Notes under the pieces: model-generated
What the model was told of the DNA's origin: nothing
Database searches by the model: none
Seen by the model: the letters and a program-made list of their open reading frames with translations, nothing else
Origin: Syntrophus sp. (in: bacteria)
GTDB lineage: Bacteria > Desulfobacterota > Syntrophorhabdia > Syntrophorhabdales > Syntrophorhabdaceae
NCBI GenBank assembly: GCA_013824645.1
Contig: PNOF01000013.1
Coordinates: 1-52,611 of the forward strand
Length of the DNA stretch: 52,611 nt
Direction of reading: 5' to 3'
Part shown: positions 1 to 29,171 of the stretch, one piece after another
Layout of the letters: each line of letters opens with the position of its first letter
How positions within the stretch are numbered: the stretch's first letter is position 1
Position numbers and translations under genes: made by a program

Positions 1-141
1 GATGGTTCCTCCATAATGTATCCAAATCGATAATAAATTATATCACACGGTTGTCGTCCACGTCGAGAAAAGGGCAAACCACTTATGAGATGGGAATGGG
101 AAATGGCATAGGTAAAAGCAACGCGGAACTCAAAACAAACC

Positions 142-1459: not shown

Positions 1460-2758
1460 TTAAGCTCTGTATACGAGGGGGTGCTTTGCCGTTATGATAT
1501 GCCTCGTGTCAACTACCGGTATACCGAATGAGAGAAAGTCTACGGCACGGTATTCATCGTGCGCCGTGGCAATAAGGAGCATGTCAAATCCTTTTGTGAT
1601 TTCGACAGATTTCCGACCGGCAAACTTCGCATATTCCCTCGTCATCCTGACAATCGGGATATAGGGATCATTATAGGAAACGATGGCCCCCATCTCTTCA
1701 AGTTTATCCATGAGCCGGTAGGAGGGCGACTCTCTATCGTCATCTACATTAGCCTTGTAGGCAAGTCCTAACATAAGGATTTTAGTGCCCTTGACAGGTT
1801 TCCCGACCTCGTTCAGCGCCTCAGCCACTTTAGATACCACGTAGTCGGGCATGTTCGTATTGATCTCGCCGGCAAGCTCGATAAAGCGGGTAACAAAATC
1901 ATACTCGCGGGCCTTCCAGGTAAGGTAAAAGGGATCAATGGGAATGCAGTGACCTCCCAGGCCCGGTCCGGGATAGAATGCCTGAAAACCGAAAGGTTTT
2001 GTCTTCGCCGCTTCTATGACCTCCCAAACATCAATACCCATTTTATCGAACAATACTTTCAGCTCATTGACGAGGGCGATATTAACGGAGCGATAAATGT
2101 TTTCCAGAAGCTTCGTTGCCTCTGCCACCTTCGGGGAGGAGACGGGCACGGTCCTGTCCACCACCGTGTCGTAGAGGGCTTTTGCTGCCGCCAGACATCC
2201 TTCGGTATAGCCGCCAACAACCTTTGGTGTCGTTCTGAGGCTGAAGCTGCCATTATTGGGATCTTCTCTCTCCGGTGAAAAAGCGAGGTGGAAGTCTTTT
2301 CCCGCTTTGAAACCGGTCTTTTCGAGTACAGCCCTCATATCCTCATCGGTTGTCCCCGGATACGTCGTTGATTCAAGAATAACGAGCTGTCCTTTCTTTA
2401 AATACTGCGCGATTGTTTCTGTCGTCTTCATCACGTAGGAAAGGTCGGGCTCTCTGTACTTGTTGAGCGGTGTCGGCACGCAGATGAGGATACAATCCAT
2501 ATTTGTAAGGCCGGAAAAGTCTGTTGTTGCATGAAAGCGGGGTTGTGTCGCCGAAGCGGCAAAAAGGGGTGAGACATCAATATGCTTGATGTAGCCTTTT
2601 CCCTCGTTGAGGAGGCGGACCTTTTCGGGGTCGATATCAAAGCCCGTCACTGAAAATCCCTGTTTGTGAAACTCGATGATAAGCGGAAGGCCTACGTAAC
2701 CAAGGCCGATTACACCGATTGCGGCCATTCTTTTACTGATAGTGTCGATAAGGTTCAT
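1460..2758 (-). CDS. wbpA: UDP-N-acetyl-D-glucosamine 6-dehydrogenase-like nucleotide-sugar dehydrogenase
   Basis: This 432-residue protein belongs to the UDP-glucose/GDP-mannose dehydrogenase family. It carries the N-terminal NAD-binding motif GVIGLGYVGLPL, the central SFSPER-type segment (AFSPEREDPNN), the catalytic Cys block GPGLGGHCIPIDPFY and the C-terminal UDP-binding domain (LGLAYKANVDDDRESPS). The ILESTTYPGTT and SPEREDP segments are typical of the WbpA/TviB group, which oxidises UDP-GlcNAc (or GalNAc) to the uronic acid, rather than of UDP-glucose dehydrogenases. A good ribosome site (aaggaag) precedes the ATG. It is the last gene of the minus-strand polysaccharide cluster. Exact substrate is inferred. 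Confidence 0.85.
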   Translation of the reverse strand: MNLIDTISKRMAAIGVIGLGYVGLPLIIEFHKQGFSVTGFDIDPEKVRLLNEGKGYIKHIDVSPLFAASATQPRFHATTDFSGLTNMDCILICVPTPLNKYREPDLSYVMKTTETIAQYLKKGQLVILESTTYPGTTDEDMRAVLEKTGFKAGKDFHLAFSPEREDPNNGSFSLRTTPKVVGGYTEGCLAAAKALYDTVVDRTVPVSSPKVAEATKLLENIYRSVNIALVNELKVLFDKMGIDVWEVIEAAKTKPFGFQAFYPGPGLGGHCIPIDPFYLTWKAREYDFVTRFIELAGEINTNMPDYVVSKVAEALNEVGKPVKGTKILMLGLAYKANVDDDRESPSYRLMDKLEEMGAIVSYNDPYIPIVRMTREYAKFAGRKSVEITKGFDMLLIATAHDEYRAVDFLSFGIPVVDTRHIITAKHPLVYRA

Positions 2759-3508: not shown

Positions 3509-3964
3509 TTATATAGAAAAACGCCTGATTTCAGCTTTTTCGTTTGCAAAGTTTATTAAAAGACCGATTTTGTAACCCGTGGCCTTGAGGCAATTGATTA
3601 ATTGCGTTTCGCGTATTCTGTCCAGCTCGTCTACCATGGTGATATCGAGAATGATCTGGTCGTCAACAATGATGTGTGCGTAATATTCGCCCACCGAGGT
3701 ACCTTTGTACCAAACCTTCAAGCGTACATTGCTTCTTGCCTTCAATTTTTCTTCTTTCAGTTCGGCCATCAGCGCGTTTTGATAGACCGTTTCTATAAAC
3801 CCGCTTCCCAGTTCCCTGCTCACTTCGAATATGGCACGGTTGATCTTTCTGATAACATCACCGCTGGTATCTATTGTTTCTTCGGAAGACCCGGCAGCGT
3901 TCTTCGTCCGGGAGTTTATCTCGGCCAGTATCTCGTCGCCTGCATTAAATTGATTACGGTTCAT
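3509..3964 (-). CDS. GxxExxY-type protein
   Basis: This 151-residue protein contains the signature GSGFIETVYQNAL (GxGxxExxY) near residue 55 and the later run YYAHIIVDDQIILDI that marks the GxxExxY family (PF13366). These proteins are common single-copy genes in environmental bacteria, often lying inside surface-polysaccharide clusters. Their function is unsettled; a nuclease-like fold has been suggested. The first 35 residues are less conserved and the start may lie downstream. It lies between the GDP-fucose synthase gene and the YdcF-like gene on the same strand, consistent with co-transcription but not with a defined step in sugar synthesis. Confidence 0.75.
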   Translation of the reverse strand: MNRNQFNAGDEILAEINSRTKNAAGSSEETIDTSGDVIRKINRAIFEVSRELGSGFIETVYQNALMAELKEEKLKARSNVRLKVWYKGTSVGEYYAHIIVDDQIILDITMVDELDRIRETQLINCLKATGYKIGLLINFANEKAEIRRFSI

Positions 3965-4017: not shown

Positions 4018-5124
4018 TTAATGGGCGTTGCAATACCATTCGATGGTCTTTTCGAGTCCTTCTTTCAGGGCCGTTTTTGCCTTGAAAGAAAATTCTTTAT
4101 AAGCCCTTGTCGTGTCGAGCATCCTACGGGGCTGACCATCCGGTTTTTCGGCATCAAAAAGAACTGTACCCCTAAACTCCATCAATTCTATAAGCAACTC
4201 AACGAGGTCTTTGATGGAAATCTCAAAACCGGCGCCGATGTTGACGGGCTCACTTTTGTTATATTTTTCGGTAGCCATGACTATCGCTTCTGCAGCATCC
4301 TCCACATAAAAAAACTCCCGCGTGGCCTTCCCTGTGCCCCAGATGGACACCACAACATCACTGGACAGTGATGTTGAATTTGAGATTTGAGATTTGAGAT
4401 TTGAGACCTTGAACGGTTTTTCATCGGCTTGAATACCAAAACCAGCCAGGTGCCGGTGGATTGCATCGACAGACCTTGAACTCTTTATGACATTTCCGAA
4501 AATCGCCAAATCACGAAGGATACCATCATAATCTCCCCGGGCAAGAAGCCCTGCAAGGTAAAACTTTCTGATTAACGCAGGGATTACGTGTGATGACCTG
4601 AAATCGAAATTATCACCGGGACCATAAAGGTTAACGGGGAGCAGGAAGATCGAATTGAATCCATACTGCTGCCGATAAGCCTGTGACTGGACAAGCATCA
4701 TCTTCTTCGCAAGCCCGTAGGGCGCGTTTGTTTCTTCGGGATAGCCATCCCATATCTGGTCCTCGTGGAAGGGAACGGGGGTAAATTTTGGATAGGCACA
4801 GATCGTCCCGAGAGCAACAAACTTGTCAATACCTTTTGCGTAGCCCTCATGGAGAAGCTGTGTTCCCATCATGGCATTTTCATAAAAAAGCGATGCCGGG
4901 TTCTCACTATTAAAACCGATACCGCCGACTTTTGCGGCAAGGTGGATTACAATATCCGGTTTTGTTTCCCGGTACATTTTTCTGACGTCGCCTAACCGGA
5001 CAAGGTTGTATTCCGGCAGATCGGCAATTGCGAGATTTTTACAACCACGCTTCTTGAGATTGTCGATAAGATGTTTACCAAGGAAGCCTTTTCCGCCTGT
5101 AATCGTAATCCTTTTATTTCGCAT
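4018..5124 (-). CDS. fcl: GDP-L-fucose synthase, long form with a repeat-derived insert
   Basis: This NADPH-dependent epimerase-reductase makes GDP-L-fucose from the keto-deoxy intermediate supplied by Gmd, encoded just upstream. It shows [11 protein letters not shown] (Rossmann loop), HLAAKVGGI, the catalytic YGLAKKM motif and [16 protein letters not shown]. The ATG at 5124 gives 368 residues; an in-frame GTG at 5148 is a second possible start. The usual length is about 310-320; the extra residues lie around positions 190-255. Part resembles an insert known in longer family members, and part ([13 protein letters not shown]) is encoded by the heptamer repeat at 4382-4402. The active-site segments on both sides remain in frame, so the enzyme is probably functional. 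Confidence 0.88.
4382..4402. repeat. Heptanucleotide repeat (GAGATTT)x3 inside the GDP-fucose synthase gene
   Basis: GAGATTT occurs three times head to tail (4382-4388, 4389-4395, 4396-4402), flanked by the partial units gaattt on the left and gagacct on the right. Three heptamers equal seven codons (NLKSQIS on the coding strand). Any copy change not in a multiple of three would frameshift the gene. Confidence 0.9.
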
Positions 5125-5204
5125 ATCCGAGCTCAAAGTAAACTCCACTCTCTCTGTATTTTTTTAAATAACCTATGAAGCCTTTTAAAAAAACTAGAAC
5201 ATCT

Positions 5205-6230
5205 TTATGCTATCCGGGCATCCACTGTATGCCCTGCATCAACAAGGGTTTTTTCTTTACGGGCAATCTCTCCGTCGGCTTCGATCATCATGTCAACAAG
5301 CTGCTCGAAACCAACTTTCGGGGTCCAACCGAGCGCTTTTTGGGCTTTCGAAGCATCGCCGAGAAGAACATCAACCTCTGTGGGGCGAAAATATTTTCGG
5401 TCAACATCAACATATTCTTTATAATCCAGGTCAAGTTTTTCAAAAACCTTCTCGGCGAACTCACGCACCGAATGGGTTTCTCCCGTTGCTATTACATAAT
5501 CATCCGGCTTTTCCTGCTGGAGCATAAGCCACATGGCTTCAACATAATCACCGGCAAACCCCCAGTCCCTCTTTGCGTCGAGGTTGCCAAGATAGAGCTT
5601 TTTCTGGAGCCCAAGTTTAATACGGGTTGCGGCCCGGGTAATCTTGCGCGTCACAAAAGTCTCACCGCGACGGGGAGATTCGTGGTTGAAAAGTATCCCG
5701 TTAGAGGCAAAGATGTTGTATGCCTGCCGGTAGTTCCTGGCTATAAAATAGGCGTAGACCTTGGCGGCCGCATAGGGGCTCTGTGGCTGGAAGGGAGTGG
5801 TCTCGCTTTGAGGAGGAGGCGCGGCCCCGAACATTTCACTTGAAGAAGCCTGATAAAATTTTGTTTTGATTCCTGTTTTGCGTATCGCTTCAAGGAGTCT
5901 AACAGTCCCGAGCCCCGTAACGTCTGCAGTATATTCAGGCATATCAAAACTGACCCTTACATGGCTCTGGGCGCCGAGGTGGTATATCTCTTCGGGCCTT
6001 ATGTCGTGGAGAAGGTCTGTCAGCTGTCCTGATACACTTAAATCACCAAAATATAAGAAGATTTTTGCGGCCGGGTCGTGGATATCACGGTAGAGGTGGT
6101 CTATTCTATCCGTATTGAAGGTGCTGGCACGACGGATAAGTCCGTGCACTTCGTAATCCTTGGACAGGAGAAGTTCCGCAAGATATGAACCATCCTGGCC
6201 GGTAATACCCGTAATCAATGCTTTTTTCAT
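5205..6230 (-). CDS. gmd: GDP-mannose 4,6-dehydratase
   Basis: This is the first step from GDP-mannose towards GDP-fucose and related deoxysugars. The ATG at 6230, preceded by aaggag, gives 341 residues beginning [20 protein letters not shown], the hallmark start of Gmd. Further motifs are [15 protein letters not shown] (GDP-mannose/NADP contact), [20 protein letters not shown], the catalytic [12 protein letters not shown] (Tyr-x3-Lys) and [16 protein letters not shown]. It lies directly upstream of the GDP-fucose synthase gene on the same strand, making a complete GDP-L-fucose branch. A frame extension upstream of 6230 has no support. Confidence 0.95.
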
Positions 6231-6348
6231 GATACTCTCCTTAGATAAAACAGTTCTACGTTCGATGTTACAATGGAGCGCGTCCCACGTATCATGCCCC
6301 ATGTCACATGGTTATTTCAACATTGTAACCTTAAACCTTGCACGGTCT

Positions 6349-7755
<1,407 letters not shown>

Positions 7756-8241
7756 ATGAAAAAGGATGTAACTATATGTTTTCGTACCAGTGAAGATCTC
7801 CGGGCTTCCTTAGATAAGGTAGCTGCTGGCGAGAGAAGATCGTTATCATCAATTATCGAAACGGTACTCTATGATTATTTGAAGGAAAAAAAAGAGCTGC
7901 GAAGCTTGAAAAGCGAGAAACGTATTTATGGGAGGAGAGAAGTTTCTCTCCCGGCCTTTGTTTACAAGAGAGGTTTAGGGGAATCGGCATTGCAGACCGG
8001 CACAATCCTGGATCTTTCGCTTGGCGGGCTGCGCGTCTCAGTCCCTCAGGAATACGATGTACAGCAAGAAGGTGAATTCGACACAATTTTCACCATACCA
8101 AATGAAAAAATGCCCGTCAAAATGAAGTGTTCCGTCAAAGGGGTCCTTGATGGAACGGACAATACAAGAGAAATACTTGCTGCCTTTGTTGACGGCGATT
8201 TTCTGGGGTACCAGAAATTACACGGGTATCTTAAGAATTAG
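7756..8241 (+). CDS. Ribbon-helix-helix / PilZ fusion protein
   Basis: The ATG at 7756 has a good ribosome site (gaggtg, 7 bases before) and gives 161 residues. Residues about 4-45 (VTICFRTSEDLRASLDKV, then RRSLSSIIETVLYDYLKEK) match a ribbon-helix-helix DNA-binding domain of the Arc/CopG type. Residues about 50-150 form a PilZ domain with the c-di-GMP-binding elements RIYGRREV (Arg-rich start) and DLSLGGLRVSV (D/N-x-S-x-x-G). No membrane segment is present. The combination predicts a transcription factor whose DNA binding responds to c-di-GMP; this is inference from domains. The gene stands alone, divergent from the polysaccharide cluster, which is a plausible target. Confidence 0.8.
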   Translation: MKKDVTICFRTSEDLRASLDKVAAGERRSLSSIIETVLYDYLKEKKELRSLKSEKRIYGRREVSLPAFVYKRGLGESALQTGTILDLSLGGLRVSVPQEYDVQQEGEFDTIFTIPNEKMPVKMKCSVKGVLDGTDNTREILAAFVDGDFLGYQKLHGYLKN

Positions 8242-8267: not shown

Positions 8268-9593
8268 TTATCTCATTACGTCCCCAAGGTAGCGCTTTAA
8301 AAAGGTAAGCCGCTCTTCAGTAAAACCATCCCAGGCAAAGGGGAAAAGGGCGTTATTCTGGTAGAGGGCATCTTCCTTTATCGGGTATCGTGCGTCAAGG
8401 TAATACTTTTCAAACATGGCAGTATGGGGTATGGGTGTATATTCTGCAATATAAGGCCTTGCCCCTGATTGGAGCACATAATCGATAGTGTCTTTAATGT
8501 CCTCCCACTTCTGGGTCGGAAGTCCGGCCAGTATGTAAACATGGAGGTCATCTCTGCTGAAGCCTGCCTTTCTGAGGGACTTCAATGCCTTTCCAAAGCT
8601 TCCTGAATCTACTTTGCCCCCTGTTTCTTTCTGCACAGCAGGATTCATTGATTCAAGACCGATCCTCACCTCCCGAAAACCAGCGTTGACGAGCAATAGA
8701 GCTAGTTCGTCATCGATGAATGCGGCGTTGATGGCATTGGGATTGTATATATCCAACCGGAAGGGGAGCTGCCCGATGCTTTTTAAAAGGGGTTTGGCGT
8801 AGCGTTCTTTTTTGTATAAAAAGCTGTCGTCGTAGAGAACAAACTTCTCCACACCCCTGTTGTGCCAGAAGCAGATCTCATCAATGACGGATACCGGGCT
8901 TCTCCTTATGATCTCCGGATACATGTATGGTGTTGCACAATAGGTACACTTGAAGGCACATCCAAGAGAGGTGAGGATAGGAACAAAAGCCCTGTTATCA
9001 TATAAATCGTAACAGGGGTAGGGGATCGCATCGAGGTCGTCCATGGAAGGTTTGTATGAAAGTGAAATCGAAAAAGTCTCTTCTATAAAAGAATAAAACC
9101 GTACCATTTCATTGCTTTTCACAATTAAATCTGCTTTTTTGAGTGTTTCGCGGGCCAAATCCTCACAGAGGGTGGGGTATATGCCGCCTACAATAATCTT
9201 TGCCTGCGGAAAGGCTTCTTTCGCTATCTCAATAACCTCTCTTGTACCGGGATACCAGTATGTCATGATAGATGTAACAAGAACAAGGTCCGGTTTGTCC
9301 ATCTCTGAAAAACGGTTTTTTAACTCCTGTGGTGAAATACCATACCGCCTGAACTGTTTTTTGACGTCTTTCAGGGCAGCGGGTTTTGTCACTTTTTCTT
9401 TGAAAAATGGCGCCCTTCCGTCCTCTTTGCGTTTCTCTTCCCTTACCTTCATACAGTCAATAAGATCTACCTCAAACCCGTTCTTCCTGAGAATGCTTCC
9501 CACATAGAGAAGTCCCAGGGGGCTTGACCAGAAGCTGTATGCTGCAAAATCATATATGTAGGGATTGACGAGGAGGGTTTTTAACCGTTTCAT
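8268..9593 (-). CDS. Radical SAM protein with N-terminal B12-binding-like domain
   Basis: The ATG at 9593 overlaps the stop of the rhomboid gene by ATGA and gives 441 residues. Residues 1-170 resemble a cobalamin-binding Rossmann domain (TLLVNPYIYDF, VLVTSIMTYWYPG, IIVGGIYPTL) but lack the DxHxxG base-off histidine motif. The radical SAM core has the 4Fe-4S motif C212-x3-C216-x2-C219 (LGCAFKCTYC), then LYDDSFLY and RIGLESMNP. This class includes methyltransferases and enzymes acting on lipids, hopanoids or tetrapyrroles; the substrate here is unknown. Translational coupling to a rhomboid protease is its only functional context. Confidence 0.85.
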   Translation of the reverse strand: MKRLKTLLVNPYIYDFAAYSFWSSPLGLLYVGSILRKNGFEVDLIDCMKVREEKRKEDGRAPFFKEKVTKPAALKDVKKQFRRYGISPQELKNRFSEMDKPDLVLVTSIMTYWYPGTREVIEIAKEAFPQAKIIVGGIYPTLCEDLARETLKKADLIVKSNEMVRFYSFIEETFSISLSYKPSMDDLDAIPYPCYDLYDNRAFVPILTSLGCAFKCTYCATPYMYPEIIRRSPVSVIDEICFWHNRGVEKFVLYDDSFLYKKERYAKPLLKSIGQLPFRLDIYNPNAINAAFIDDELALLLVNAGFREVRIGLESMNPAVQKETGGKVDSGSFGKALKSLRKAGFSRDDLHVYILAGLPTQKWEDIKDTIDYVLQSGARPYIAEYTPIPHTAMFEKYYLDARYPIKEDALYQNNALFPFAWDGFTEERLTFLKRYLGDVMR

Positions 9594-10291
9594 AATCGTG
9601 TACGTGAGGGCTTTTTGACCCGCGGGGCCTTGCCGATTGATTTCCCGGCAAATACCTTCACCAGCAGAAGACCGAAAATAAACCCGCCTATATGGGCATA
9701 CCAGGCAACACCTTCCGTGCTCGTTGAATAAACAACCTGCATAAAAAACCATATGGTTAAAAGTAACATGGCCGGAAGTTCAACAATCTTGATGAATATA
9801 ATAATGATGAGGAGTGTTTTTATCCGCGCATAGGGGTACAGAACCAGGTAAGCGCCGAGCACGCCGGATATTGCCCCGCTTGCACCGATCATGGGTATAG
9901 TTGACAACGGATCGTAAAAAACCTGGAACCCGGCAGCTATAAGACCTGAAAACACATAAAAAAGAATAAACTTCGTGTGTCCCATGGCGTCTTCAACGTT
10001 GTTGCCAAAAATCCACAGGTAGAGCATGTTTCCGGCGAGGTGAAAAAAACCGCCATGGAGAAACATAGATGTAAAAAGCGTCATAATGTTATAGGGGAGA
10101 AGATTCCACCGGGTCATGACGGAAACCATGAATTCATGGGGTACAAATCCGTAATACCCGTAGAGAGCTTCACCCGCCTGACCTTGCAAGACAAGCCCTT
10201 GCCACAGAAAAATTAATATATTTACAAAGATAAGACTCACTGTTATAATTGGTAAAGTGCGTGTAGGGACATTATCTTTAAGCGGTATCAC
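9590..10291 (-). CDS. Rhomboid-family intramembrane serine protease
   Basis: This 233-residue membrane protein has about six transmembrane segments. The catalytic Ser lies in GASGAISG (S138) and the catalytic His in WYAHIGGF (H200). HLAGNMLYLWIFG near residues 84-96 supplies the conserved loop Asn. The N-terminus MIPLKDNVPTRTLP is typical of bacterial rhomboids. Such enzymes cleave transmembrane helices of substrate proteins within the inner membrane. Its stop overlaps the start of the radical SAM gene (ATGA), and only about 60 bases separate it from the divergent galT gene. Confidence 0.92.
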   Translation of the reverse strand: MIPLKDNVPTRTLPIITVSLIFVNILIFLWQGLVLQGQAGEALYGYYGFVPHEFMVSVMTRWNLLPYNIMTLFTSMFLHGGFFHLAGNMLYLWIFGNNVEDAMGHTKFILFYVFSGLIAAGFQVFYDPLSTIPMIGASGAISGVLGAYLVLYPYARIKTLLIIIIFIKIVELPAMLLLTIWFFMQVVYSTSTEGVAWYAHIGGFIFGLLLVKVFAGKSIGKAPRVKKPSRTRL

Positions 10292-10350: not shown

Positions 10351-11355
10351 ATGCCTGAACTGAGAAAAGATCCCATTATTGATCGGTGGGTTATTATTTC
10401 CACAGAACGGGGTAAAAGGCCGGTTTTTTTTATTGAAGAAACACCCCCGTCAAAGTCCACCGTATGCCCTTTGTGTCCCGGCAATGAAGGTATGACACCT
10501 CCTGAGGTATACGCAGTAAGACCGCCGCCAGGCCCGAATTCTACCACTTCTGACTGGACGCTTCGGGTTGTTCCCAATAAATTTCCCGCCCTGAGAATCG
10601 AGGGTGACCTTGATAAGGAAGGCCGGGGCTTGTACGACAAGATGAACGGCATCGGGGCACACGAAGTTATTGTCGAAACACCGCACCACGGCGAGACTTT
10701 ATGGGACCTGCCAGTGGAACGTATCCAGGACGTCTTCATCGCTTACAGGGAAAGGACCCTTGATCTTTCCAGAGACCGGCGATTTAAGTACATTATGGTT
10801 TTTAAGAATCACGGGTCTGTTGCCGGTGCATCATTGGATCATTCCCATTCCCAGCTTATTGCGCTGCCAATCGTTCCGAGGCGGGTTGTGGAGGAAATGA
10901 ACGGCGGGCTCACCTATTACAAGTTTAAAGACAGGTGCATCTTCTGCGATATTATTACCCAGGAAAAAGAAGATAGTGTCCGTGTAGTCTTTGAGAATGA
11001 ACAGTTTATCGCTCTCTCGCCCTATGCGGCACGTTTCCCCTTTGAAACGTGGATATTACCGAAAAAACATGAAGCTGTTTTTGCTGATCATGATAGAAGA
11101 GACAATTATCATTCCCTTGCCGAAACCGCTTCTACAATTCTCAAAAAGTATTTCAAGGTGCTTAATGCGCCGCCGTATAATTATGTTATCCATACTGCTC
11201 CCTCGGGAAGCGGGGAAATACCCCATTACCACTGGCATATTGAATTGATTCCTCGGTTAACCAAGATGGCTGGGTTCGAGTGGGGAACGGGTTTTTATAT
11301 TAATCCTACACCGCCAGAAGAAGCAACTGTGTACCTTAAGGAAACACAACTATAG
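10351..11355 (+). CDS. galT: Galactose-1-phosphate uridylyltransferase
   Basis: This HIT-superfamily enzyme transfers UMP between UDP-glucose and galactose-1-phosphate. The 334 residues show the zinc-type Cys pair CPLCPGN (C39, C42), NKFPAL, GAHEVIVETPHH, the nucleophile motif H164-S-H166-S-Q168 (LDHSHSQL), a second Cys pair CIFC (C196, C199) and the C-terminal PHYHWHIELIPR. It is followed 8 bases later by glgA, so both probably form one operon feeding hexose phosphates to glycogen. Some homologues in anaerobes act on ADP-sugars, so the exact sugar nucleotide is not certain. Confidence 0.9.
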   Translation: MPELRKDPIIDRWVIISTERGKRPVFFIEETPPSKSTVCPLCPGNEGMTPPEVYAVRPPPGPNSTTSDWTLRVVPNKFPALRIEGDLDKEGRGLYDKMNGIGAHEVIVETPHHGETLWDLPVERIQDVFIAYRERTLDLSRDRRFKYIMVFKNHGSVAGASLDHSHSQLIALPIVPRRVVEEMNGGLTYYKFKDRCIFCDIITQEKEDSVRVVFENEQFIALSPYAARFPFETWILPKKHEAVFADHDRRDNYHSLAETASTILKKYFKVLNAPPYNYVIHTAPSGSGEIPHYHWHIELIPRLTKMAGFEWGTGFYINPTPPEEATVYLKETQL

Positions 11356-11363
11356 GGGGTAAC

Positions 11364-12821
11364 ATGAAAGTATTGATTGCGTCTCCGGAAATTTATCCTT
11401 TCGTGAAAACAGGCGGTCTTGCCGATGTCACGGGGGTGCTTCCGAAGGCCTTAAAAAAACTTGGTATTGAAGCACGGGTGATCCTCCCGAAACATAAGGG
11501 CATAGAAGAGCTTGGCTTTCCCATGAAGTATAAAAATCATAAGATCACCTGCCAGATATCGCAATCCTTTGTTGACGCTGAAATCGTTGAAACCGAGTAC
11601 GACGGGATTACAGCCTATCTTGTCGAAAAAGATGAATATTACTACAGAGACTATCTTTACAGCACCCCTGATGGTGATTACCTCGACAACGCCGAACGGT
11701 TTATATTTTTTGCAAAAAGTATTCTGGAGGCAATGAAAGTAACCGGTTTTGTGCCTGATGTGCTTCACTGCAATGACTGGGAAACAGCCCTTTCGCCCGT
11801 GTTTCTCAAGACACTCTGCAAAGATGATCCTGAACTGCAAAAAGTCGCTACACTGCTCACTATTCACAACTTAGGGTATCAGGGCATCTTCTGGCATTAC
11901 GATATGCACCTTTTGAATGTGGGCTGGGAGTATTTTACCCCGGATTGTCTCGAATTTTTCGGTCATATAAACTTTCTGAAGGGCGGCATCGTCTTTTCGG
12001 ATATTCTTAATACCGTGAGCAGACAGTATGGTAACGAAATACAAACTCCGGAATTTGGTTGCGGTCTCGACGGCATCCTGCAGACAAGGAGAAAAGACCT
12101 CTTCGGTATTGTAAACGGCATCGATTATGAGGAATGGAACCCTGATAAAGATCAGCATCTTCCGGCACGGTATAATGCCGAAAAACCGGACGACAAGAAG
12201 ATATGCAAGAGTGCCCTCCAGGAAGCTTACGGGCTGCCGCGTCAGGAAAATACCCCGCTTATCGCTACAATATCGCGCCTTGCCGATCAGAAAGGCTTTG
12301 ATCTCATTGCTTCTTCTCTGGGAGAAATATTGTCGCAGGGTACGCAGTATGTTATCCTCGGTACCGGGGAAAGGAAATATCACGACCTTTTTACCCAGTT
12401 AGCGAAAGAATTCCCGAAATCATTTGCCGTTAAGATCGCCTATGATAACAAACTGGCGCACCTTATCGAAGCGGGCGCCGACATGTTTCTCATGCCTTCT
12501 CAATACGAGCCGTGCGGCCTCAATCAGCTATACAGCCTGAAATACGGCACAATACCCATTGTCAGGGGCGTGGGCGGCCTCGAAGATACGATTATTGACT
12601 ACACAAAGTCACCCGATACTGGTACGGGCTTTAAGTTTTATGCCTATTCAAAAGAAGCTATGCTTGATGCAATTAAGAGGGCTATTGTTGTATACCAAAA
12701 TCAGGGTGCATGGCAGATCCTGGTCAAAAGATGTATGATGGAAGACTTTTCCTGGGACAAATCGGCAAGGGAATACGCGGAACTTTATAATAAAGCAATT
12801 GCAAAGCATGAATCCCGTTGA
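11364..12821 (+). CDS. glgA: Glycogen (starch) synthase, GT5 family
   Basis: This enzyme uses ADP- or UDP-glucose to extend alpha-1,4-glucan. The 485 residues begin MKVLIASPEIYPFVKTGGLADVTG, with the ADP-glucose-binding KTGGL motif at about 15-19. They continue with LHCNDWETALSPV, TIHNLGYQG, GILNGIDY-like GIVNGIDYEEWNP, ISRLADQKGFDL and the C-terminal acceptor block MFLMPSQYEPCGLNQLYSLKYG, all diagnostic of bacterial GlgA. The length fits the family. The gene starts after a ggggg ribosome site just downstream of galT, and its end overlaps the start of a histidine kinase gene. Confidence 0.95.
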   Translation: MKVLIASPEIYPFVKTGGLADVTGVLPKALKKLGIEARVILPKHKGIEELGFPMKYKNHKITCQISQSFVDAEIVETEYDGITAYLVEKDEYYYRDYLYSTPDGDYLDNAERFIFFAKSILEAMKVTGFVPDVLHCNDWETALSPVFLKTLCKDDPELQKVATLLTIHNLGYQGIFWHYDMHLLNVGWEYFTPDCLEFFGHINFLKGGIVFSDILNTVSRQYGNEIQTPEFGCGLDGILQTRRKDLFGIVNGIDYEEWNPDKDQHLPARYNAEKPDDKKICKSALQEAYGLPRQENTPLIATISRLADQKGFDLIASSLGEILSQGTQYVILGTGERKYHDLFTQLAKEFPKSFAVKIAYDNKLAHLIEAGADMFLMPSQYEPCGLNQLYSLKYGTIPIVRGVGGLEDTIIDYTKSPDTGTGFKFYAYSKEAMLDAIKRAIVVYQNQGAWQILVKRCMMEDFSWDKSAREYAELYNKAIAKHESR

Positions 12822-14544
12822 TCTCCTCGGGAAGATTATTGAAATCTCCCACTCAAACCTGGACCTGTCTTCCCGGTTAAGTGCCATACTCAACATCATT
12901 TCGCAGGATATGCAATTTGAAGAAGTCCTTGTTTATACTCTCGACAAGGATAAAAGATTGACCTGCAGATTTATGAATCCAAAGAGCATACTCTTTAAGA
13001 TGCTCAATCAGTACCGGTGTCATGTCGGCGAAGGCATCATCGGAAGCGTGGCACAAAAAAGAACACCACAATATTTTTCAATAAAGGATATCTCTCCCAG
13101 ATTCGGGTGTCTTTTTTACCCCGAGCTGGACGGGCTCCTTGAAAACTACCGTACCTTTTCGTTCCTGCCTCTTGCAGACGATAGCTACATTTACGGAGTC
13201 CTTGTTCTCTGTTCAGTATCGAAGGAATCTCTTCAGGGTCCCGAAAGGATCCTCCTGTCCATTCTCTCCCGGGAGATAGGCGGAATACTTCGTTCTTTCG
13301 AGCTTCTTCTCTCATCAAAGAAAAGGATCAGCGAGCTGGCCATGCTCTCTGAGCTTGGTAAGGTCCTCATCTCCAACGTTGAACCCCATGAACTCATTAA
13401 AAACATTGCCCTTATCATAGCAAAATCACTGAACGCAACCTTTGTAACGATTAAACTCGAGTATGTCCTGCTTAAGCTTGATTCCCAGCGATTTACCTAT
13501 GGTATTATCGATTCCTCAATCCAGGATTATATCGAACAACTGGAGCAATCGGCAGTTAAACTTCTTCGGCCTGCGTCTCTGAGAAACTCCGCCCTCGACC
13601 AGTTTGAGGGCACGTTTAAATTCACCCTCTATTCGGCGCCCATAGCCTCAAAGAACCGGGTCCTGGGAACTATTACAATTTGCGGGGAAAAAACAACCCA
13701 ACCCCATATCCTCGAAGAAGACGGTCAATACATAATAAACACCATAGCAAACTATATTTCGAGCGGATTAGAAAATACTCTTCTGAACACAAGGCTGAGA
13801 GATGTTGTCAGGGAACTCACCGATGCCCAGAAACGGCTTATTGAACAGGAAAAATTCCGGAGTCTCGGCGAGATGACGGCCAATATTGCCCACGAGATAA
13901 AAAATCCTCTTGTCATCATCGGCGGGTTTACAAAACGACTTGCAAAACGGACACACCATGAGCCTACAGAAGATAAATATATTAACATCATCCTCAAGGA
14001 GGTGGACCGTCTCGAAACGATTCTGAATGAAATTCTCAACTATGTGAGGGAGAGCCCATCTTTAGCTGATGAATGCAACATAAGCGACTTTCTTGATGAA
14101 ATTCTTTATCTTCTTTCAACAGACAATTCCTGGGAACAGATTGAGATTGCTAAAGACTTTGACCCTACTCTGCCAGCAATACCATGCGACAGCCAGCAAT
14201 TAAAGCAGGTATTCATCAATATTCTTATGAATGCCCATGAGGCAATGCAGGGCCGCGGTAAAATAACAATAACGACAAAGCTGGTTTCTTATAACAACCA
14301 ACCATTTCTCAGTGTTTCGTTAACCGATACTGGTGGCGGTATCAGCCCTGGAATTCTCGACAATGTCTTCAATCCATTTTTTACAACAAAAGAGAAGGGG
14401 ACCGGCCTTGGATTAGCCATTTCTCACAAGATCATTGCGAATCACCACGGACATATAGATGTTGAAAATATACTAGGAAAAGGGGTAACATTTACCGTAT
14501 ATCTCCCCTTAAAAAATAACAGTACGAAAGAGGAGTTTTTATGA
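12808..14544 (+). CDS. Soluble GAF-domain sensor histidine kinase
   Basis: The protein has no membrane segments. Residues about 1-175 and 185-340 form two GAF-like sensor regions (first: SNLDLSSRLSAILNIISQDM; second: HELIKNIALIIAKSLNATFV). A coiled stretch leads to HisKA with the phospho-His at H362 (ANIAHEIKNPL), then HATPase_c with the N box (ILMNAHEAMQ), DTGGGI, FFTTKEKGTGLGL. ATG 12808 overlaps the end of glgA by 14 bases; an in-frame TTG at 12799 is an alternative start. Its stop overlaps the start of the receiver gene by ATGA, so kinase and receiver are a coupled pair. The signal is unknown, though linkage to glycogen synthase hints at energy or carbon state. Confidence 0.9.
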   Translation: MNPVDLLGKIIEISHSNLDLSSRLSAILNIISQDMQFEEVLVYTLDKDKRLTCRFMNPKSILFKMLNQYRCHVGEGIIGSVAQKRTPQYFSIKDISPRFGCLFYPELDGLLENYRTFSFLPLADDSYIYGVLVLCSVSKESLQGPERILLSILSREIGGILRSFELLLSSKKRISELAMLSELGKVLISNVEPHELIKNIALIIAKSLNATFVTIKLEYVLLKLDSQRFTYGIIDSSIQDYIEQLEQSAVKLLRPASLRNSALDQFEGTFKFTLYSAPIASKNRVLGTITICGEKTTQPHILEEDGQYIINTIANYISSGLENTLLNTRLRDVVRELTDAQKRLIEQEKFRSLGEMTANIAHEIKNPLVIIGGFTKRLAKRTHHEPTEDKYINIILKEVDRLETILNEILNYVRESPSLADECNISDFLDEILYLLSTDNSWEQIEIAKDFDPTLPAIPCDSQQLKQVFINILMNAHEAMQGRGKITITTKLVSYNNQPFLSVSLTDTGGGISPGILDNVFNPFFTTKEKGTGLGLAISHKIIANHHGHIDVENILGKGVTFTVYLPLKNNSTKEEFL

Positions 14545-14903
14545 AAAATCTAAGGGTTTTGGTAGTCGACGATGAGGAAAACATAAGGCTGCTTTTTAAA
14601 GAAGAACTTGAAGACGAAGGCTATGCGGTCGAAATCGCATCCAATGGTTTAGAAGCTCTGGAAAAGCTCAAAAACTCGAATTTTGACATCGTGGTGATGG
14701 ACATAAAGATGCCCGGAATGGATGGGATACAAACCCTCAATGCGATAAAAAACACAAACAAGGATCAGCCTGTAATCCTTTGTTCCGCATATGGGGAATT
14801 CAAGCAGGACTTTTCGAGTTGGGTGTCCGATGGATATGTTGTTAAATCGGCAGATACTCGAGAATTGAAGCAAACAATAAAAAATATCCTGCATCTCCAA
14901 TAG
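14541..14903 (+). CDS. Stand-alone response-regulator receiver (Spo0F/CheY-like)
   Basis: This 120-residue protein is a single receiver domain with no output domain. It has the acidic pair VDDEE near residues 10-12, the phospho-acceptor Asp in VVMDIKMPGMDG (about residue 53), and the conserved Lys in VVKSAD near residue 104. ATG 14541 overlaps the kinase stop, so it is almost certainly the kinase's partner. Receivers without an output domain act in phosphorelays or by protein contact; no histidine phosphotransfer protein is visible nearby. Confidence 0.92.
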   Translation: MKNLRVLVVDDEENIRLLFKEELEDEGYAVEIASNGLEALEKLKNSNFDIVVMDIKMPGMDGIQTLNAIKNTNKDQPVILCSAYGEFKQDFSSWVSDGYVVKSADTRELKQTIKNILHLQ

Positions 14904-24469: not shown

Positions 24470-25153
24470 TTACGTTGTCATGTGGTCTATCTCTTTGTAG
24501 CGAAGGTCTCTTTCAACATCACGAATCTTTCTTCCAAGCTCGTTTTTGATGTGCCCATCGACATTGAGAAATTGTATAGATACAAATTCGAGGCTTTTTT
24601 TCACCTTTTCGTTTTCTGGCTCATGAATTCGGACCACCCTTGAGTCTATTTGATAAATTCTTTCACCAACCACAAGGACGATTTTTACCTCTTCATTTTC
24701 CTTAAAGTGATGGGTCTTGTTGTGACTGAAACGGGCTCCACCAATAGAAACATCCAGGATAGTCACTTTGTTCCCTTCTACAAAAATATCGATACCGCAA
24801 TTACCGGGCGGTTCCAGCCGGTAAAACATCCTTAAGTTATAGGGCTCCGGTCTGCTCTCTTTAAACAACTCTATCGCCTGGGTTGTCTGTTGTGATGCAA
24901 GCTCATAATCTTTTATAAAATCCATTATTTTTGCCGAAAATCCGTACCTTACGGGCTTCCCTTGTTCTTTTTCGAGGTATGTTACGTAGACATTTTCTTT
25001 TATGTGGGTTCTCGAGATAGGCGGGTCGGGTTGAGCCACTATTATCCTTTTTTCTATGATATCGTGAATAATTGAATTTTTTGTTTCGACTATTTCTTTG
25101 CGATAATCGATATTGATAACAATATTAACAGTAAGTCCCGGTTTAATTTCCAT
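24470..25153 (-). CDS. PilZ-domain protein, YcgR-like two-domain layout
   Basis: This 227-residue soluble protein has an N-terminal YcgR-N-like beta-barrel region (residues about 1-100, including VNIVINIDYRKEIVETKN and VTYLEKEQGKPVRYGFSA). A C-terminal PilZ domain follows with the c-di-GMP motif RMFYRLEPP (RxxxR) and DVSIGGARFSH (DxSxxGxxF). YcgR proteins act on flagellar motors or on other c-di-GMP targets. No flagellar genes lie nearby. No clear ribosome site precedes the ATG, although TATAGT lies 14 bases upstream. Confidence 0.85.
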   Translation of the reverse strand: MEIKPGLTVNIVINIDYRKEIVETKNSIIHDIIEKRIIVAQPDPPISRTHIKENVYVTYLEKEQGKPVRYGFSAKIMDFIKDYELASQQTTQAIELFKESRPEPYNLRMFYRLEPPGNCGIDIFVEGNKVTILDVSIGGARFSHNKTHHFKENEEVKIVLVVGERIYQIDSRVVRIHEPENEKVKKSLEFVSIQFLNVDGHIKNELGRKIRDVERDLRYKEIDHMTT

Positions 25154-27416: not shown

Positions 27417-28245
27417 TATCGACGTTCGCGTTCTCAGAGAAAAAATTGAAAATATCAACGCCCTTCCGACAATTCCGAAGGTGCTCAAAAAACTTCTAGT
27501 CGTAATTGAAAACCCGAGGGTCTCCCTCAACGAGATCAGCAATTTTATATCCAGTGATCCCGCTCTCACGATAAAGGTTCTTAAAATGGTCAACTCCCCT
27601 GTTTACGGGTTTCCGGGAAGAATATCGTCAGTGAACCAGGCGGTCATTCTCCTTGGGCTTACCGTTGTAAGGGGTCTCCTTCTCGGCGTCTCTGTTTTTG
27701 AATTGATGCAGAAAACAATGCTCGGCCTCTGGGAGCACTCCCTGGGAACAGCAATCGTATCACGGCTTATTGCGGTTAAAAAGGGCCTCAAGGAACCCGA
27801 CGAGCTTTCCGTGGACGGGCTTCTCCATGATATTGGAAAAGTGCTGCTTATCCTTCAATACCCGGAAGAATATCAAAAGACCATGAACGAAACTGATATA
27901 AATAGCATTACCATTTACGAGTCGGAAAGGGTTCACTTTAACACTACTCACGCCAGCGTTGGGGCCTGGATGGCCCAAAAATGGAGGTTCCCCCCCAACC
28001 TTATTGACATTATAGAATATCATCACAAACCGCATCTTTCAAAAAGAGCGCCATTAGGGGCCGCAATTGTTCATCTTGCAGATATCCTTGTTAAGGCCCG
28101 CGGGTTCGGATTCGCCGGCGACCGTTTCCTCGTGTCTGTAAGTCCTGAGGCTTGGGACATGCTTTCTCTTTCTGAGTCTGACTTAAAGGAAATTTTAATT
28201 GAGGCTGAGGATTCTTTCCAAATGACTGAAGATCTTTCTCTATGA
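27409..28245 (+). CDS. HDOD-domain protein
   Basis: The ATG at 27409 (ribosome site gaagg) gives 278 residues, with an HDOD domain across about 10-210: LPTIPKVLKKLL, DPALTIKVLKMVNSPVYGFP, VNQAVILLGL, then LLHDIGKVLLILQYPEEY. HDOD is related to HD phosphodiesterases but is usually non-catalytic and serves in signalling. The gene is the middle of a three-gene overlapping operon with the small HD-GYP-N-like protein before it and a GGDEF protein after it (ATGA). An in-frame TTG at 27397 is an alternative start. Confidence 0.9.
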   Translation: MGNIDVRVLREKIENINALPTIPKVLKKLLVVIENPRVSLNEISNFISSDPALTIKVLKMVNSPVYGFPGRISSVNQAVILLGLTVVRGLLLGVSVFELMQKTMLGLWEHSLGTAIVSRLIAVKKGLKEPDELSVDGLLHDIGKVLLILQYPEEYQKTMNETDINSITIYESERVHFNTTHASVGAWMAQKWRFPPNLIDIIEYHHKPHLSKRAPLGAAIVHLADILVKARGFGFAGDRFLVSVSPEAWDMLSLSESDLKEILIEAEDSFQMTEDLSL

Positions 28246-29171
28246 ACGAAAAAACCATTGTTGTAATTTCTCAAGACGCCGCATTATCAAGCATAATTGA
28301 ACGAACCCTCAACACAACTTACAGAATTCTTTCTTTTCATAATATCCAGTCTGCTATAGATTATATTTACAACTCCATTCCAGATCTTGTCATTATCGAT
28401 ATTAATGAGGGGGATTCTTTTACTATCAGCGTATTGAATAATCTTAAGGGCGATCCTATTTTTCATCAGCTCCCCGTTCTCATGGTTATTGACGATACCC
28501 AGGACATTCCCCGGTGGGAAACCCTTCTCGTTGAGGACTATATAAAAAAATCGGATTTCGAAAAAGAAGGTCCTTCTCGCGTTGCCCTCTCTATTCTCAG
28601 GGCTGAAAGGTCTGTTGAGGTTAATCCGCTCACAAAACTTCCCGGCAACACTTCCATTAACAAACAGATTCAGGATAGGATAGATCGGGGCGAGATCTTT
28701 GCTCTTGCCTATGCAGATCTTGACCATTTTAAGCCATTTAACGACCATTACGGGTTTACCCGTGGCGATGAGGTGATCCGGATAGCTGGTAGATTAATCC
28801 TCAATATCGTAAAAAACAAACAACCAACCGATAGTTTTATAGGTCATATAGGCGGTGATGACTTTATTTTTATTGTCTCTGTTAATCTCGTTGAGGATAC
28901 AGCAAAAGAGATTATCGACGCTTTCGACCGGATTATCCCGACGTTATACGAAGCTGACGATAGAGAACGGGGCCACATTGAATCTCTTGACCGTCAGGGC
29001 AACACGAAAAAGTTTCCCGTAGTTTCAGTGTCTATCGGCATCACTAGCAACTCGCAGCGTTCTTTTACCCACTATGGTGAAGTCACAGAAATTGCCTCTG
29101 GAATGAAAAGCCAGGCAAAGCGTAGCCGTGGAAGCTGCTACAGGGTTGATAAAAGGCAAGTGCTCACGTAG
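28242..29171 (+). CDS. Receiver-like / GGDEF protein with GGDDF active-site variant
   Basis: Residues 1-120 form a receiver-like domain (TIVVISQDAALSSIIERTL, LVIIDINEGDS) whose acidic pocket is incomplete. Residues about 135-300 form a GGDEF domain with AYADLDHFKPFNDHYGF and the signature GHIGGDDFIFI. The fourth signature residue, normally Glu and catalytic, is Asp here, so diguanylate cyclase activity is uncertain; it could act as a c-di-GMP or GTP receptor. The gene overlaps the HDOD gene by ATGA. No EAL domain is visible in the window. Confidence 0.88.
   Translation: MNEKTIVVISQDAALSSIIERTLNTTYRILSFHNIQSAIDYIYNSIPDLVIIDINEGDSFTISVLNNLKGDPIFHQLPVLMVIDDTQDIPRWETLLVEDYIKKSDFEKEGPSRVALSILRAERSVEVNPLTKLPGNTSINKQIQDRIDRGEIFALAYADLDHFKPFNDHYGFTRGDEVIRIAGRLILNIVKNKQPTDSFIGHIGGDDFIFIVSVNLVEDTAKEIIDAFDRIIPTLYEADDRERGHIESLDRQGNTKKFPVVSVSIGITSNSQRSFTHYGEVTEIASGMKSQAKRSRGSCYRVDKRQVLT

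Follow-up and report, generated by a model that had tools for sequence, protein, structure and literature searches.

A predicted ribbon-helix-helix-PilZ fusion protein encoded beside nucleotide-sugar genes in a Syntrophus sp. genome

RESULTS

Gene organization at the locus

The window analyzed here is a single contig of 52,611 nucleotides from a Syntrophus sp. genome of 2.63 Mb that is 88% complete. It encodes a protein in which a predicted N-terminal ribbon-helix-helix (RHH) domain is followed by a PilZ domain, and which we refer to as RHH-PilZ. The gene lies between a divergent GalE/GDP-sugar cluster and a convergent radical SAM gene (Table 1). Its start codon is immediately preceded by an AGAGGTG ribosome-binding site, and the methionine at 7756 is common to the homologues; a longer frame from a TTG at 7705 was disfavored on both grounds. 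Inside the nucleotide-sugar cluster there is also a gene for a GxxExxY/PDDEXK_3 protein (3509 to 3964, minus strand), which is found there in relatives L034 and L088 as well.

Because the genome contains eight GGDEF matches over the cut-off and only three PilZ proteins, its gene content suggests that the host likely makes c-di-GMP and that RHH-PilZ is one of few PilZ receptors for it. A second PilZ protein in the window (24470 to 25153, minus strand; 227 residues) has a YcgR-like layout with an N-terminal extension. The window also encodes a receiver-GGDEF protein (28242 to 29171, plus strand) with the active-site motif GGDDF, perhaps a degenerate cyclase or a receptor.

Table 1. Features of the RHH-PilZ locus, in window coordinates
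Feature	Position	Strand	Basis or remark
RHH-PilZ protein, 161 aa	7756..8241	+	ORF translation, Pfam, homologues, AlphaFold2
RHH DNA-binding domain (predicted), residues 2-50	7759..7905	+	AlphaFold2, structural matches, conservation
RHH strand, residues ~5-11 (T6, C8, R10 predicted DNA-facing); helix A, 13-26; helix B, 30-44		+	AlphaFold2
Hinge, residues 45-55, between helix B and the c-di-GMP RxxxR loop	7888..7920	+	AlphaFold2; block pLDDT 63-65
PilZ domain, residues 54-161	7915..8238	+	Pfam PF07238, structural matches, motif invariance
TGTTATACT, putative extended -10 of the RHH-PilZ promoter	7673..7681	+	Consensus match
Tandem direct repeat AATAAAACTA x2, 11-bp period	7634..7654	.	Just upstream of the putative promoter
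GalE-type UDP-glucose 4-epimerase, divergent neighbor, foremost candidate target	6349..7317	-	NCBIfam TIGR01179, 461 bits (cut-off 262)
GDP-mannose 4,6-dehydratase, GalE/GDP-sugar cluster	5205..6302	-	TIGR01472, 523 bits (cut-off 415)
GDP-L-fucose-synthase-like NAD-dependent epimerase, GalE/GDP-sugar cluster	4018..5148	-	Family-model score below cut-off
Nucleotide-sugar dehydrogenase, GalE/GDP-sugar cluster	1460..2758	-	TIGR03026, 430 bits (cut-off 190)
B12-binding radical SAM protein, convergent neighbor	8268..9752	-	Retained in relatives without RHH-PilZ

The region upstream of RHH-PilZ

In 12 of 12 orthologues from two genera, the element TGTTATACT lies 55 to 84 nt 5' of the start codon, in one case with a single mismatch; in genus g5, conservation past the element extends into TGTAT(C/T)GCA. 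Its consensus makes it a plausible extended -10. It was also considered as a binding site, since a third genus has it in the opposite orientation. This was rejected and the element is read as a promoter only, because it fits an extended -10, occurs at about 0.1 per shuffled 350-nt region, and has genome-wide matches that are outnumbered by those of the reversed control pattern. An autoregulatory site perhaps overlaps it.

The spacing of the AATAAAACTA repeat has a chance probability of about 0.003, for a spacing that was picked after the fact. At an equal distance, a relative in the same genus also carries an 11-bp repeat, of different sequence, but the other genus has none. We regard the repeat as a weak operator candidate, one whose sequence is not conserved in relatives. 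A conserved operator upstream of the RHH-PilZ orthologues was looked for and not found. No riboswitch was detected near the locus, a single tRNA being the only such match in the window. The intergenic region further contains a near-perfect inverted repeat, ATGCAATGC/GCATTGCAT (7408 to 7437), which was terminator-like by scan.

The N-terminal half is predicted to adopt an RHH fold

The AlphaFold2 model of the whole protein had a mean pLDDT of 84.7, and that of residues 1 to 53 alone had a mean of 87.5; both show two RHH helices. The predicted strand-helix-helix fold of about 45 residues is that of the MetJ/Arc superfamily. A structural search with the model of residues 1 to 53 matched Arc (1myk) with a Z score of 7.2 and a root mean square deviation (rmsd) of 1.1 Å over 47 of 47 residues, followed by PutA, CopG, KacA, TacA1, AmrZ, NikR, and CdbA; nearly all of the matches were RHH proteins. 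A Z score of about 7 is middling in general and near the ceiling for a domain of 45 residues. A preliminary description of this DNA had proposed an Arc/CopG-like domain at about residues 4 to 45, to be given up should the N-terminal 45 residues fail to model as RHH. They did model as RHH, both within the whole protein and in residues 1 to 53 alone, and the domain is now placed at about residues 2 to 50.

A Pfam scan of the window protein alone returned no match for the RHH half. Among the 25 homologues of alignment A1, modest matches (best E value, 5e-4) were obtained to DUF6290 (10 of 25), RHH_5 (6), Arc (4), and RHH_1 (4). Short, divergent RHH domains often escape the Pfam RHH sequence models, which aid detection and do not define the fold. 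When the PDB was searched with the single RHH-PilZ sequence, no match was found; a profile of residues 1 to 53 ranked two RHH proteins, HP0222 and CopG, among its leading matches (E values, 0.04 to 0.4).

The alignment with Arc is ungapped, with an offset of 3, and places T6, C8, and R10 on Arc Q9, N11, and R13, the residues of Arc that contact operator bases. The strand positions that this alignment marks as DNA facing carry conserved polar or basic residues: R10 is present in 37 of 38 homologues, and position 8 holds either C or S in 36. Where helix B begins, R28, S31, and S32 are each kept in 35 of the 38. Because a strand that served pairing alone would vary at its outward positions, their conservation argues that DNA recognition, beyond pairing, is under selection in the RHH half. 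As in the MetJ/Arc superfamily, this domain would be expected to read DNA as a dimer with an intermolecular β ribbon.

These residues bear on a different proposal, in which the RHH domain only pairs or tetramerizes the PilZ domains and the target is another protein, for instance a synthase or a pilus or motor part. Most characterized PilZ proteins do target proteins, and RHH domains dimerize strongly, but R10, which is predicted to point outward, equals the core in conservation, and the restriction of position 8 and the retention of R28, S31, and S32 likewise speak against a role in pairing only. Moreover, the genome has only three PilZ proteins, and no protein partner is conserved across families. 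We consider this proposal improbable.

The PilZ domain carries an intact c-di-GMP motif

The window protein scored 25.6 bits against Pfam PF07238 (gathering cut-off, 22.5), and PilZ was matched in all 25 members of alignment A1, with a best E value of 8e-15. AlphaFold2 predicted a β barrel (about residues 61 to 144) with a C-terminal helix at 149 to 160, and the model resembles c-di-GMP-bound PilZ structures. The top VIA-align matches were MotI/DgrA (Z score, 14.4; rmsd, 2.2; 103 residues), MapZ (13.8; 2.8; 101 residues), and BcsA (Z score, 12 to 13); YcgR gave a Z score of 11.6.

The alignment shows that the RxxxR motif (R56-I-Y-G-R60) and the DxSxxG motif (D86-L-S-L-G-G91) are intact, as the preliminary description had stated, with R56, R60, S88, and G91 invariant in 38 of 38 homologues. 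At column 86, 35 homologues have D (31) or N (4), and the other 3 have S (2) or E (1). From these motifs we infer that the PilZ domain binds c-di-GMP via R56xxxR60 and D86xSxxG91. The RHH domain had also been described as lying directly before the PilZ domain. The order is right, but "directly" is approximate, since a lower-confidence hinge of about 10 residues separates the two. C125 (8128 to 8130), a barrel cysteine outside the known c-di-GMP motif, was unexpectedly invariant in 38 of 38 homologues.

Alternatively, c-di-GMP might be sensed by the RHH domain, as in CdbA, or the PilZ domain might bind another ligand or none. CdbA binds c-di-GMP by RHH residues K8/S10 and R27/R30, and R10 and R27/R28 of RHH-PilZ lie in similar elements; a PilZ motif that is invariant in 38 homologues is nevertheless hard to reconcile with a vestigial domain, and we regard this alternative as very improbable.

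Distribution of the fusion

Full-length homologues of RHH-PilZ were present in 25 of 60 relatives (E values down to 4e-71), and PilZ was fused behind RHH in every full-length homologue. Among 395 genomes sampled evenly across the phylum, about 15 carried the fusion, and these belonged to families f1, f32, f42, f92, f96, and f106; the search of the 60 relatives added family f2, so that the fusion occurs in at least seven families. A scan of contigs from all phyla with one peptide pattern returned delta-type MAGs only; the whole-genome search covered this phylum, and a wider spread is possible. Because R56, R60, S88, and G91 are kept in all 38 homologues and R10 in 37, across at least seven families, the alignments indicate that the fusion is old and under selection rather than a chance ORF.

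A mobile or viral origin was rejected: viral contigs yielded no relative, and the plasmid matches covered only a PilZ part, in Nitratidesulfovibrio, and the N terminus there is not recognizably RHH. A peat Syntrophaceae MAG, bog_1155, has about eight RHH-PilZ paralogues (at L045, L047, L048, L051, and L052), some of them RHH only or PilZ only, as if the modules were being separated or remodeled. In a separate genome, a 67-residue RHH relative stands alone (L072).

Conservation of the gene neighborhood

In the three closest genera (g1, g5, and g9), one gene order was seen at every locus long enough to display it: GalE is divergent from RHH-PilZ, which is followed by radical SAM/B12 and rhomboid genes on the opposite strand and then by GalT, GlgA, histidine kinase, and response regulator genes on its own strand. 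GalE adjoins RHH-PilZ in this divergent arrangement in 17 of 17 testable loci. Beyond GalE there is a variable set comprising GDP-mannose 4,6-dehydratase, the fucose-synthase-like epimerase, the nucleotide-sugar dehydrogenase, and a DUF218 protein. An apparent plus-strand neighbor at some loci ("c14") was rejected as a shadow ORF over GalE. The block from GalT to the response regulator (10351 to 14903, plus strand, in the window) keeps its strict order beside RHH-PilZ in the carriers of these genera.

In 14 same-family relatives that lack RHH-PilZ, the radical SAM gene is retained, with the rhomboid and GalT genes alongside in 11, and neither GalE nor RHH-PilZ lies within 1.5 kb beyond it. GalE of this type is absent genome-wide from 13 of the 14. 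The co-presence of GalE and RHH-PilZ (19/3 against 1/13) gave a Fisher P value of 3e-6, or 0.005 by genus, both uncorrected for kinship. An alternative cause of the joint absence could be that small genomes do not have the pathway at all. Three carriers (G010, G011, and G015) lack a GalE gene, and two (G004 and G019) have GalE away from RHH-PilZ.

The contexts vary among families. In f106, four genes of the GalE/GDP-sugar cluster lie about 3 kb from RHH-PilZ, and in f92 a dTDP-glucose 4,6-dehydratase gene lies about 2 kb away, next to that of a PEP-CTERM protein. In f32, RHH-PilZ is part of a Csu-like chaperone-usher pilus operon and is co-directional with its genes for spore-coat-U-type subunits, a PapD-type chaperone, and an usher. 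The neighbors in f42 and in f1 genera g4 and g11 include phosphatase, PAS-LuxR, and kinase genes. Because of this variation, and because some carriers lack GalE, the link to surface polymers is not universal, but it is real in several lineages. At L082 and L083, which have the Csu-like operon, RHH-PilZ is preceded by a gene that joins DUF4388-like repeats to a pilus-subunit-like C-terminal domain.

The same variation, together with the carriers that lack the GalE cluster, would suit a protein that is a c-di-GMP-regulated global DNA binder (nucleoid associated-like, compare CdbA) or mainly an autoregulator, with the sugar genes as no special target. We think this unlikely, given the strict adjacency to GalE and the joint absence of the two genes within the family; in addition, the fusion is found in just 25 of the 60 relatives, unlike an essential chromosome organizer. 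The preliminary description had named the polysaccharide cluster as a natural target. Conserved adjacency and co-absence support the cluster as a candidate target, while the other contexts elsewhere and the failure to find a conserved operator do not. The homologues beside polysaccharide operons that it proposed to look for occur in several lineages; other families have different contexts, such as the chaperone-usher pilus operon.

DISCUSSION

A model for RHH-PilZ

We put at about 0.6 the probability that RHH-PilZ is a one-component c-di-GMP transcription factor whose domains are coupled through the hinge, with its own promoter and the GalE/GDP-sugar cluster as the likeliest targets. Two chains would pair by their N-terminal strands, giving an Arc-type RHH unit that reads DNA; the fold of this unit is predicted, and the dimer is suggested by analogy. 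The C-terminal PilZ domain, judging from its motif, would take up c-di-GMP via R56xxxR60 and D86xSxxG91. Known PilZ proteins wrap the RxxxR loop around c-di-GMP. Here the loop, from residue 56, would close on the ligand next to the flexible hinge and so re-orient the PilZ pair against the RHH dimer. Because the RxxxR loop directly follows the hinge, ligand binding should change how the RHH units are presented. Such re-orientation may alter their presentation or clustering, and with it cooperative DNA binding, for which the ligand domain of NikR offers a parallel. Regulation of its own promoter and of the divergent cluster, as adjacency suggests, would tie the supply of exopolysaccharide precursors to the sessile state.

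RHH-PilZ is probably an undescribed type of switch that couples gene expression to the decision to attach to a surface. The chances are about even that it represents an undescribed family of one-component c-di-GMP transcription factors, spread over several families of Thermodesulfobacteriota, in which a modular Arc-type head switched by a canonical PilZ domain controls surface polysaccharide or chaperone-usher pili according to lineage. If the model is true, a fusion of only 161 residues, in which the simplest DNA-binding fold is joined to the commonest c-di-GMP receptor, would make a clean model for the route from c-di-GMP to promoters. It would also hint at the way in which aggregation is controlled in syntrophic anaerobes that are hard to culture, and RHH-PilZ could be used as a compact c-di-GMP-responsive regulator in laboratory circuits.

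Relationship to known systems

A genuine PilZ domain is found in few transcription factors, with MrkH being the usual example. An RHH-PilZ fusion was not found in the open-access literature, to which the search was confined, and its apparent novelty is provisional. Two c-di-GMP receptor reviews list CdbA and MrkH, and their relevant passages do not name RHH-PilZ. MotI/DgrA, MapZ, and YcgR share the PilZ fold and motif with RHH-PilZ, but they target proteins and have no DNA-binding head. Like RHH-PilZ, NikR has an RHH head controlled by a fused ligand-binding domain, which in NikR is an ACT domain for nickel and not PilZ. A 2025 review counts PilZ domains with ill-defined partner domains among the candidates still open (PMC12564702).

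AmrZ of Pseudomonas is, like the model proposed here, an RHH regulator of exopolysaccharide and c-di-GMP-linked genes, but it lacks a PilZ domain and is reported not to bind c-di-GMP (PMC7156744). CdbA of Myxococcus xanthus resembles RHH-PilZ in being an RHH DNA-binding protein with c-di-GMP-responsive DNA binding (PMC7156744). It is a stand-alone RHH protein with no further ligand domain and takes the ligand on the RHH domain itself, whereas RHH-PilZ has a separate, canonical PilZ domain. In MrkH of Klebsiella pneumoniae, as proposed for RHH-PilZ, a PilZ domain is part of a c-di-GMP-dependent transcription factor, there for adhesion genes. MrkH, however, has a PilZ-like N-terminal domain, described as having a novel DNA-binding fold (PMC12564702, PMC7288161), and no RHH, whereas the N terminus of RHH-PilZ is predicted to be an RHH domain.
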